From contig JAJPIG010000021.1 in assembly GCA_021324855.1 (NCBI GenBank), positions 62,001 to 126,000 on the forward strand: a DNA stretch of 64,000 bases, read 5' to 3'. Source of the DNA: Pseudomonadota bacterium. Lineage in GTDB: Bacteria > Desulfobacterota > Binatia > Binatales > Binataceae. The position numbers and the translations under genes were made by a program. Under the pieces are notes generated by a model. The model ran no database searches. It was given only the letters and a program-made list of their open reading frames with translations, and had not been told where the DNA came from. Positions 11,834 through 14,450 of the stretch are shown here, in pieces (position 1 is the stretch's first letter; every line of letters starts with the position of its first letter).

Positions 11834-12325
11834 TTACTCGCCCGCCGAGCTGCGGTTGGTGTTCAGAGTCTTCTCGACCTCGGGACAGGACATGTGGGCG
11901 GCGCGGAGCTTGGCGCCAAGCTCCGTCATCTCCATTCCGTGGCTCGTCATTGCATGACACTGGGTGCATCCGAATTCATGGAAATCATGCACCTGCGCCT
12001 GCTGCTCGCTGGTCCATCGCTCCTCCGGAACGCTGATCAGTTTGGTCATCGCGGTAAGTAGATCGACGCATCCGAGCGACTGTTTTTTGATTTCCAGCCC
12101 ATGCGCTGTGTAGCCAAACTGTCCCTTGCTGCCGAGCGTATGGCAGCTTCCGCAGTTATGCTCCTTGAAGATCTTGGCGGCCAGCCGATGAGGGTTCGAG
12201 CCGGCGTCGCCCTCGGCGGCATTCGCAATGCTGAGCGATGACCCGGCAATCAGAATCGCGCCTAGCACCGCGGCGATCACATTACAGTTCGACCGAAGTG
12301 TCGACGTCATCAGATGCCGCTCCAT
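11834..12325 (-). CDS. Exported di-heme c-type cytochrome
   Basis: The 163-residue protein has an N-terminal signal peptide (hydrophobic core about residues 16-33, likely cleaved after ANA at 37) and two heme c attachment motifs, CGSCH at residues 58-62 and CTQCH at 120-124. Spacing and low similarity between the halves do not match a duplicated class I cytochrome I can name. It would carry electrons in the periplasm. The start could also be ATG 12310 (residue 6). It is convergent with the alcohol dehydrogenase, so a direct electron-acceptor role is possible but unproven. A lone extra Cys86 and Cys147 are present. Confidence 0.72.
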   Translation of the reverse strand: MERHLMTSTLRSNCNVIAAVLGAILIAGSSLSIANAAEGDAGSNPHRLAAKIFKEHNCGSCHTLGSKGQFGYTAHGLEIKKQSLGCVDLLTAMTKLISVPEERWTSEQQAQVHDFHEFGCTQCHAMTSHGMEMTELGAKLRAAHMSCPEVEKTLNTNRSSAGE

Positions 12326-12390: not shown

Positions 12391-12978
12391 TCAGCCGGCC
12401 GCTCCCCAGTAGCGGACCCGGCCGCAATCGACATGGACGAAACCCGAGCGCGGATAGTAGCCGACGCCGCCGCCGCGCAGCGACATCGCGGCGCGATGCA
12501 CGTTGGCGAGGTAGCGTCCTGGCACGCAGATGTCCGCCGCCATCCCGTACATATGAAGACTGTTGGTGGCCACGGCCTCGCTGTGCGCGTGCAGCATCGC
12601 GTTGGTCTGCGGCGAGCGATAGCCGGAAACCAGGTCGAACGGCGCGCTCGTGTCGAGCGTGTAATGGAGCGCGTAGAGCAGGTCGAGGAGGCGGCGATCG
12701 ATGTTGACCTCCAGATTGAGGCGAAAATCGCGCATCAGGTAATTGATCGCCTGCAGGCCCTCGGGAACATATTGATTATCGGCATAATAGACCGTCTTCA
12801 GAGACTCGCCGGTGTGAAGATTGTAGAACGAAAGCGAACGCTCGCCGCTCCAGAAACCGCTCGCCAGCGCATGTCCTGGAATCGCGAGCCCGGCCAGGGC
12901 AGTCGCGCCAAGGCAGATGAAGCGGCGACGGCTGATGATCGACGCTGGACTCGATTGCTTTTCCGCAAGCGCGCTCAT
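12391..12978 (-). CDS. DUF882 (YcbK-like, M15-type) protein with Tat signal
   Basis: The 195-residue protein starts with a twin-arginine signal, SRRRFICLGA at about residues 17-26, followed by a hydrophobic stretch ending at ALAS. The mature part begins RSLSFYNLHTGESL, the usual DUF882 opening, and carries the zinc ligands of M15-like murein peptidases: SGYRSPQTN, SLHMYGMAADI and FVHVDCGRVRYW. It is thus a probable periplasmic cell-wall-modifying metallopeptidase exported folded. ATG 12978 is only 11 bases from the start of the divergent FHA-CAP gene, so the two share a promoter region. Confidence 0.85.
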   Translation of the reverse strand: MSALAEKQSSPASIISRRRFICLGATALAGLAIPGHALASGFWSGERSLSFYNLHTGESLKTVYYADNQYVPEGLQAINYLMRDFRLNLEVNIDRRLLDLLYALHYTLDTSAPFDLVSGYRSPQTNAMLHAHSEAVATNSLHMYGMAADICVPGRYLANVHRAAMSLRGGGVGYYPRSGFVHVDCGRVRYWGAAG

Positions 12979-12989
12979 CGCGCGTTATT

Positions 12990-14450
12990 GTGGGCATTTT
13001 CCGCGTCGGAATCAACCAGGATGTCGAGGCTGGCGAAACTCCATGGATGGTGATTGACGGCATCGCCCGTCCTGATGACGATAATGGCATGGAGCCGGCG
13101 GCGAGGGGGCGTGCGCAGCGGCCGACGATGCGCCTGGTCGGGCTGGGAGGCTCCGCGCCGCGCGAGGTCGCTATCGCTGAGGGGCGCACGCGCATCGGCA
13201 GCGCCGATGACAACGATCTCGTAATCGCGGAGCCCACCGTCTCCCGGCGCCACGCCGAGATCCATCGGCGGCGAGCGCGATGTGTAATCAAAGATCTCGG
13301 CTCGACCAATGGGACCTTTCTGAACGGGGTCAGGCTTGGCTCGCGGGCGCGAATCAAAGGTGGCGATGAAATCCGCTTCGGCTCGGTGCGCTTCGTCGCG
13401 CACGATCCGACAGTACGGACCCGCAAGCGCCGCCTGCGGCCCAGGACCGCAATCGAAATACTGATCGCGCTGTTCGTCGTCGGGTTCGGTGTGACCGAAT
13501 ATTTTCTGAGTACGGTTGGACCGCGACCTCCGAGCGAAGAATTTTCGGCCGCTCGGTTCACCAAACTGGTCGCGCTTCACTCGGTTTCGCCACCCGTATC
13601 TGCCGGCGCGAGTTCAGGCGCACCTGTGCCGCAATGGCTCGCGTGGCTGAATCATTACCGCGCCAGTGTCGATGTACCCGCCGTCAGCGAGGACTCCGCG
13701 CTCAGCGCCGGCGATGAAGCCCATGCGCGCTACCTGGTCGAGAACTACGGCGATGCGATCGCGCGCGGCGTCCGTCCCGGCGCGGAGATGCACACGGAGA
13801 ATCCCGGCGCACCCGGTTATAGCGAGGCTGGTTTCAAGGCCGCCTCGGCCAGCGATGTCGCGCAGTGGGCGGGGTATGGCGGCATACACTTCTCCGCCAG
13901 GGAGGCCATCGACGGATGGATGTCGATTCCGTTCCATCGTCTGCCGATCCTGAGTCCGCGTCTGCAGCGGGCCGGCTACGGTCAGTACTGTGGGCCGGCG
14001 AATTGTGCGGCGGCGCTCAACGTCCTGACCGACTCCGAGCCGCTGCATCCGATTCCGACGCTGTTCAAAAATCCGATCGAGTTTCCAGCCAACGGCTCGA
14101 CGATCGCGCTCAAAGCCGCGGGGTCCGAATGGCCCGATCCGCTGACCTCGTGCGCCGGGTATGCATTGCCGACCGGACCGCCGATCACGTTGCAGCTCGG
14201 TTCCTGGTATCAGCCAACGCTCTCGGCGTTTTCGGTACAGCGAGATGGCGCGAACATCGAGGCCTGCGGCTTCGATGCGAACAGTTACAGGAATCCCGAT
14301 GCTTCGGTGCAGAAAGTCGGGCGGGGCGTGCTGCGCGATTACGGCGCGGTCGTCATCATTCCGCGCGAGCCGTTTAGCGCGGGTTCGACCTACGCGGTCA
14401 CGATGACCGTCGACGGCAAGCGGTATGGATGGTCGTTCAAGGTGGAATAG
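12990..14450 (+). CDS. FHA domain - transmembrane - CAP (SCP-like) domain protein
   Basis: The 486-residue protein combines an N-terminal cytoplasmic forkhead-associated domain (about residues 48-138, with TRIGSADDNDLVI, SRRHAEIH and DLGSTNGTFLNG), one transmembrane helix (about 154-172) and an extracytoplasmic CAP/SCP-like domain (about 214-347; WLAWLNHYRASV, EAHARYL with His245, MHTENPG with His268, and FHRLPILSP with His316). A C-terminal Ig-like part (about 362-485) begins at IEFPANGSTI. FHA domains bind phosphothreonine, so the protein looks like a signal-linked envelope protein. The start is unsure: GTG 12990, ATG 13047 or ATG 13089 are all upstream of the FHA domain. It is divergent from the DUF882 gene. 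Confidence 0.78.
   Translation: MGIFRVGINQDVEAGETPWMVIDGIARPDDDNGMEPAARGRAQRPTMRLVGLGGSAPREVAIAEGRTRIGSADDNDLVIAEPTVSRRHAEIHRRRARCVIKDLGSTNGTFLNGVRLGSRARIKGGDEIRFGSVRFVAHDPTVRTRKRRLRPRTAIEILIALFVVGFGVTEYFLSTVGPRPPSEEFSAARFTKLVALHSVSPPVSAGASSGAPVPQWLAWLNHYRASVDVPAVSEDSALSAGDEAHARYLVENYGDAIARGVRPGAEMHTENPGAPGYSEAGFKAASASDVAQWAGYGGIHFSAREAIDGWMSIPFHRLPILSPRLQRAGYGQYCGPANCAAALNVLTDSEPLHPIPTLFKNPIEFPANGSTIALKAAGSEWPDPLTSCAGYALPTGPPITLQLGSWYQPTLSAFSVQRDGANIEACGFDANSYRNPDASVQKVGRGVLRDYGAVVIIPREPFSAGSTYAVTMTVDGKRYGWSFKVE

Follow-up and report, generated by a model that had tools for sequence, protein, structure and literature searches.

The window, by which the whole analysed stretch of 64,000 nucleotides is meant, comes from a soil bacterium of the Binataceae (phylum Binatota) and encodes a protein in which an FHA domain, one membrane helix (TM), a linker, a CAP domain and a C-terminal Ig-like domain (CopC/Big_5-type) follow each other in a single chain; this domain order is confirmed. 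We cautiously favour its interpretation as a single-pass inner-membrane protein of the Binataceae, whose FHA-TM part would be a phospho-independent docking anchor for exchangeable periplasmic heads. The cytoplasmic FHA domain and the membrane helix would together fix the periplasmic head, made of the CAP and Ig-like domains, to a particular site or assembly. Most of the ligand face of the FHA domain is kept and the phosphate-gripping arginine is lost, which points to a fixed cytoplasmic partner, or the domain itself, as the most likely ligand, with little or no phosphothreonine dependence, by analogy with what is reported for the FHA-like domain of PrgH, a ring protein of type III secretion. 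Such a front also occurs with a TlpA-like head, and a degenerate version with two CAP-Ig units, so that it looks like a mounting module rather than a CAP-specific switch. The analysis adds the C-terminal domain, an architecture shared across the family, the loss of the arginine and the exchange of heads; no FHA-CAP fusion was mentioned in the titles and abstract openings covered by a literature search.

Start of the gene and coding

The ORF (12990–14450, plus strand, 486 aa) opens at a GTG, which is probably not the start codon because just 11 bases separate it from the first codon of the divergent peptidase. The true start is probably 13047 or later, in each case ahead of the FHA domain, and the later starts 13089 and 13128 are possible. 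Residue numbers of the parts are counted from ATG 13047; residues 1–21 are unconserved (14 % identity to the congener). The FHA core stays intact with each of the in-frame upstream starts (12990, 13047, 13050, 13089 and 13128). The original prediction had named a start past the FHA domain as one of two findings that would refute its reading; such a start is ruled out, as all in-frame starts up to 13128 precede the FHA core, and it is also at odds with 29 of the 34 other family genomes, in which the ORF includes the FHA domain as well. Identity to the congener is 54 % in the FHA domain, 50 % in the TM helix, 37 % in the linker, 63 % in the CAP domain and 64 % in the C-terminal domain. Nucleotide differences in the FHA domain number 32, 28 and 62 at codon positions 1, 2 and 3, a third-position bias that speaks for selection on the protein.

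Table 1. Features in the window and in related loci (window positions unless a locus is named).
Feature	Position	Strand	Basis or remark
Divergent neighbour, M15_2/MepK-type peptidoglycan endopeptidase	12391..12978	-	NF053624; Pfam
FHA-TM-CAP-Ig gene	13047..14450	+	467 aa from ATG 13047; ORF opens at GTG 12990; orthologs aligned
FHA domain, predicted cytoplasmic	13122..13415	+	residues 26-123; PF00498, AlphaFold, fold match
Ser52 codon at site of phosphothreonine-contact Arg	13200..13202	+	IGS instead of IGR; alignment
Single transmembrane helix	13440..13514	+	residues 132-156, N-terminal side positive; hydropathy and modelled helix
Linker, presumably periplasmic	13515..13628	+	poorly conserved (alignment); pLDDT <50 at residues 160-190
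CAP/SCP domain	13629..14036	+	residues ~195-330; PF00188, GAPR-1 fold match, conserved columns
C-terminal Ig-like beta-sandwich, CopC/Big_5-type	14058..14444	+	residues ~338-466; fold match, Big_5, motif
TlpA-type FHA-TM paralogs	L050:6843-8132	+	
	L026:216-1412	-	
	L189:930-2120	-	
	L190:892-2046	-	
Degenerate-FHA CAP paralogs	L047:7768-10293	+	VADRHA-like, pocket Ser lost
	L049:9247-10803	+	VADRHA-like, pocket Ser lost
	L052:4146-5591	-	VADRHA-like, pocket Ser lost
	L071:5451-6929	-	VADRHA-like, pocket Ser lost
	L078:1011-2462	+	VADRHA-like, pocket Ser lost
	L079:4839-6317	+	VADRHA-like, pocket Ser lost

Domain architecture and structural model

The occurrence of FHA, one membrane helix and CAP in a single chain, as originally proposed, was borne out by Pfam, hydropathy and AlphaFold and by conservation as a unit; the domain list was incomplete, the C-terminal domain (about 14058–14444) having been overlooked. 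Of the two segments singled out for structure prediction in that proposal, the N-terminal one folded as FHA in the model and the CAP one resembled CAP structures at modest Z-scores. The full AlphaFold model (built with 31 relatives) had a mean pLDDT of 86.3; the FHA and CAP/C-terminal domains were mostly above 90, and the linker (residues 160–190) and the first 21 residues were below 50. In the FHA domain the ten-residue blocks from 41 to 120 averaged 94–96. The CAP and C-terminal domains modelled alone gave a pLDDT of 94.2 and a pTM of 0.90.

FHA domain and membrane helix: PF00498 matched ORF residues 67–131 (E 2.2e-21; 76.5 bits, cut-off 20.7), and the modelled beta-sandwich superimposed on the FHA domain of GarA (6i2r_B) with Z 18.4 (93 residues aligned, rmsd 1.2), so that the domain belongs to the FHA fold. 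The protein has one strong hydrophobic segment, with the basic stretch VRTRKRRLRP just before it; since this segment was also modelled as one helix, an N-in/C-out topology is suggested, with the FHA domain in the cytoplasm and the CAP domain outside.

CAP domain: PF00188 matched ORF residues 220–339 (E 1.8e-7; 32.4 bits, cut-off 21.1) and, at E up to 0.1, all 31 rows of alignment A4, the window protein included. The model has the CAP sandwich fold, which together with the Pfam match places the domain in the CAP superfamily. The Z-scores of 8–10 for the CAP-Ig part are modest, barely over the level common for models without a clear match: 9.8 with GAPR-1 (5vhg; 125 aligned, rmsd 3.2), 9.6 with an SCP-domain protein of B. 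anthracis (4ifa) and 8.4 with Borrelia BB0689. In a Foldseek search with the CAP-Ig model the best match was an L,D-transpeptidase by way of the Ig-like part (E 1.6e-4), and GAPR-1 came second (E 6.5e-4). The CAP assignment, a prediction from sequence, is accordingly taken from Pfam. The metal-binding tetrad of CAP proteins is reported to consist of two His and two Glu (PMC10189770); the conserved His249, Glu251 and His297, of which both His are invariant and the Glu nearly so, are putative tetrad candidates, chosen from alignment columns.

C-terminal domain: Cys369 and Cys407 and an EWPxPL motif are invariant. The domain matched CopC (6nfq_B) with Z 9.3 (88 aligned, rmsd 2.5) and also resembled the Ig-like parts of L,D-transpeptidases. 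Big_5 was matched by Pfam in 4 of 31 alignment rows, and the domain is taken as an Ig-like sandwich on this account. Copper binding in the manner of CopC was considered and is not claimed, the fold alone being in common (sequence match to PcoC: E 0.42). NCBIfam DalA gave weak matches in 7 of 31 rows, from which no inference was drawn, as neither CAP nor SCP is mentioned in the DalA paper.

Phosphothreonine pocket

FHA domains are described as having the hallmark residues Gly, Arg, Ser, His and Asn (PMC4238996). Gly, Ser, His and Asn are present in the window FHA and Arg is not: the alignment reads IGS where Rv1747 and OdhI have GR. The 40 distinct CAP-linked FHAs were split by eye into 34 of the main type and 6 degenerate ones. 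Among the former the Arg position is occupied by S (27), A (3), T (3) or Y (1) and never by R, and the rest of the pocket is largely kept (Ser 33, next Arg 33, His 34, Thr 29 and Asn 33 of 34). All 17 rows of alignment A5 share the Gly, the Ser with the Arg that follows it, the His and the Asn. The degenerate FHAs have all lost the pocket Ser, and three of them keep R. Two FHA fragments at contig edges, probably from further FHA-CAP genes and counted outside the 34, show Ala (L195) and Lys (L192).

For comparison, 43 other FHAs were used; these came from the 30 best-match loci of a longer list (23 genomes) and from the own genome, and are not all FHAs of those genomes. The Arg position reads R in 37, S in 2, K in 1 and C in 1, with 2 gaps. 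In the 33 that have the pocket Ser it reads R in 27, with the same 2 S, 1 K, 1 C and 2 gaps. Both S-type controls are TlpA-type paralogs of the same FHA-TM group (L013/L050 and L026), so that outside this group R is found in 37 of 41. In the own genome the position is covered in four other FHAs, each with R; a fifth shows GR in a longer segment, and for the sixth the position is covered in neither segment set. Because 10 of the 43 controls keep the Arg without the pocket Ser, the arginine by itself is an imperfect marker.

In MupFHA, R41A or S55A is reported to disrupt the interaction with PknQ severely, and docking and simulation indicated that the Arg following the Ser can contact the phosphate (PMC4238996); in DgcB, Lys and a second Arg are reported to support phosphothreonine as well (PMC6733907). 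As the other pocket residues are mostly kept, the window FHA likely binds some ligand, and phospho-reading is uncertain. We consider phospho-reading by FHAs of the window type doubtful; it is not given up altogether because the five other pocket residues do not vary in A5 and further basic residues are used in DgcB.

Exchange of heads

In two genomes (G008 and G016) an FHA of the GS type, a TM helix and a linker are joined to an AhpC-TSA/TlpA-like thioredoxin head (CPVC motif), directly beside the FHA-CAP gene. TlpA-like heads on GS-type FHA-TM fronts also occur in G023 (CPAC) and G002 (CADC). These heads were identified by Pfam (AhpC-TSA, Redoxin, Thioredoxin), and the name TlpA/ResA-type was given by eye. 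One chain in G026 combines a degenerate FHA front with two CAP-Ig units. These TlpA-headed and double CAP-Ig sequences show that FHA-TM fronts of this kind are exchanged between heads. In the congener (G001; L188:598-1584, plus strand) the FHA-TM front of the TlpA-type paralog runs into a transposase HTH domain and is apparently broken by insertion. A small lipoprotein-like ORF accompanies the degenerate paralogs in five of six loci (no Pfam match in the one example scanned).

Distribution

The genome set comprised 57 genomes: the own one, 34 of the same genus or family and 22 of the class. A CAP-Ig match was found in 35 of them (the own, 32 of 34 from the family and 2 of 22 from the class). 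FHA and CAP lie on one ORF in 29 of the 34 other family genomes, the exceptions being G002, G004, G018, G025 and G031; 25 of these 29 sit in alignment A1 and the other four were counted through L062, L073, L083 and L094, the last being the copy of G024, to which isolate name and position tie it. In A1, at E up to 0.01, Pfam gave CAP in 23 of 26 rows and FHA in 26 of 26; the latter figure is no survey, since FHA was the criterion by which rows entered A1. In G025 a contig edge carries a fragment of an FHA-TM sequence. In G004 and G018, which belong to one genus, TM helix and head occur without FHA, and a six-frame search of these relatives gave no FHA remnant.

A collection scan with the single protein as query gave no matches. 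With alignment A2 it gave 42 loci, 18 with the FHA motif, 4 Binatota-like ones without it (L088, cut at the contig start, L093, L101 and L118) and 20 outside the group. No FHA was found in these 20 CAP-Ig relatives (L106–L112, L114–L117 and L119–L127; three are open at the contig start). By record title they belong to Chloroflexota groups and once to Actinomycetota, and many start like exported proteins, judged by eye.

Genomic neighbourhood and kinases

Neighbouring genes were compared in 40 fetched loci (L046–L085, 4.7–16.5 kb), of which 27 carry main-type FHA-CAP, 3 the degenerate-FHA CAP paralog only and 10 FHA-less CAP relatives. The divergent neighbour had been described as a Tat-exported cell-wall peptidase; this agrees with its NF053624 (MepK) score of 213.7 bits (cut-off 185) and with a twin-arginine-like SRRRF at its N-terminus, seen by eye. 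The hint at envelope remodelling that was drawn from it is weak, because an M15 homolog stands beside the gene in just 1 of the 40 other loci, that of the congener; as a general feature the linkage is ruled out. A small protein with CxxCH motifs adjoins the peptidase gene (window 11834–12325, minus strand), is conserved near it in the congener too and looks cytochrome-like by eye, with no Pfam match over cut-off.

A Ser/Thr kinase gene, whose presence had been proposed as a check, was looked for in the window's genome, and six Pkinase matches over cut-off were found. Five of these six matches were used as queries against the ORFs of 90 aa or more in the 40 loci, and at E 1e-8 they gave no kinase homolog; contig ends truncate several of these loci.

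An HDAC-family gene lies near FHA-CAP in 12 of the 40 loci, all among the 27 of the main type (L047, L049, L051, L054, L058, L059, L061, L063, L069, L072, L073 and L083), in 11 cases immediately upstream on the same strand; it was not found in the congener locus L046. Of the 40 loci, 12 contain a member of the TatC family and 13 one of a GH15-type glycosidase family. One example each of the HDAC, TatC and GH15-type genes was checked with Pfam.

Interpretation and comparison with known systems

The original prediction took FHA domains as readers of threonine phosphorylation and suggested a kinase-linked switch of the extracellular CAP module. In this form, phosphothreonine would be read through the remaining pocket and a kinase would recruit or regulate the CAP head across the membrane. 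The six kinase matches, the retained Ser, following Arg, His and Asn, and the phosphate contact of the Arg after Ser proposed for MupFHA (PMC4238996) leave room for such a switch. The loss of the phosphothreonine-reading arginine makes it doubtful: it is missing in 34 of 34 main-type CAP-linked FHAs and kept in 37 of 43 others, and R41A severely disrupts binding by MupFHA (PMC4238996). The search of the 40 loci with five of the six kinase matches gave no homolog either, and we rate this mechanism as unlikely, though it deserves serious consideration. Several of the same facts bear on the docking anchor from the other side: main-type FHAs retain the other pocket residues, which would be expected of a domain that still binds a phosphopeptide; in DgcB phosphothreonine is supported by Lys and a second Arg as well (PMC6733907); presence or absence of the arginine is an imperfect guide, given the controls that have it without the pocket Ser; Ser/Thr kinases are encoded in the genome; and the topology is predicted from hydropathy and charge.

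A quite improbable reading is that the FHA domain is vestigial, or a purely structural plug that does no more than aid membrane insertion, so that function would reside in a CAP-Ig head anchored in the inner membrane. It would account for TM and head without FHA in G004 and G018, with no remnant in six frames, for the degenerate FHA paralogs and for CAP-Ig without FHA in Chloroflexota. Against it, the FHA domain is kept as well as the TM helix in the congener (54 % vs 50 % identity) with third-position-biased differences, and the pocket residues besides Arg are near-invariant in the main type. The docking anchor remains our preferred reading. A bolder version, which we regard as rather improbable, is a dedicated FHA-TM mounting module of the Binataceae, the Arg-less pocket of which is re-tuned to recognise one conserved, non-phosphorylated cytoplasmic scaffold and so gathers the heads at one envelope site. 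If this were true, CAP-Ig, double CAP-Ig and TlpA-like thioredoxin would form a set of interchangeable periplasmic tools that is directed to its site from the cytoplasmic side.

A close parallel is with the SctD family of secretion systems (PrgH, MxiG, YscD), the members of which are likewise bitopic and combine an FHA fold at the cytoplasmic N-terminus with a periplasmic portion; their phospho-pocket is reported to be poorly conserved and PrgH not to depend on its pocket (PMC3635987). PrgH with Ala at the proposed phosphothreonine-contact residues shows normal secretion, whereas deletion of the domain gives immature, secretion-incompetent basal bodies (PMC3635987). The window protein differs in its C-terminal part, which is CAP plus Ig-like, and TIGR02500 (SctD/YscD) gave 16.6 bits, below the cut-off of 86. 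With the FHA phosphothreonine readers (GarA/OdhI, Rv1747, EmbR, FhaA) it shares the fold (Z up to 18.4) and the Gly, Ser, His and Asn hallmarks; unlike them, it has Ser for the hallmark Arg, a membrane anchor and a CAP head. The CAP/SCP superfamily (GAPR-1, PR-1, 4ifa, BB0689) is matched through PF00188 and the folds of GAPR-1, 4ifa and BB0689, although identity in the fold matches is 13–22 % and the CAP domain is joined here to an Ig-like domain, with the FHA-TM front as an additional fusion in Binataceae. Paralogs bear a head like the TlpA/ResA-type membrane-anchored periplasmic thioredoxins on the same kind of FHA-TM front; here, in contrast to those thioredoxins, the anchor is FHA-TM, and the window protein itself is without a thioredoxin domain.

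In a barely studied phylum, FHA would be employed repeatedly on the cytoplasmic side of membrane anchors whose periplasmic heads are exchangeable, and a residue usually taken for granted under the label 'FHA' is consistently lost. The label should not be equated with 'phosphothreonine switch'. The family is compact enough for comparing phospho-dependent and phospho-independent FHA binding inside one organism.

Relationships of the FHA domains

The FHA tree (92 columns) is poorly resolved, 40 of its 87 inner branches being open, and its groups are not used as the basis of any result. The automatic group labels in it were in part erroneous, with some main-type rows marked as degenerate and TlpA paralogs and FHA-CAP fragments marked as 'other'. 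CAP-linked, TlpA-type and L002-type (VWA) FHAs stand largely together, apart from most others (support 97/83), with L033 outside. The L002-type is represented by a VWA-domain ORF with a C-terminal GR-type FHA (G000:C22:43886-44080); relatives of it lie near some of the CAP- and TlpA-linked FHAs, and an FHA of this type is a possible source of the CAP-linked one.
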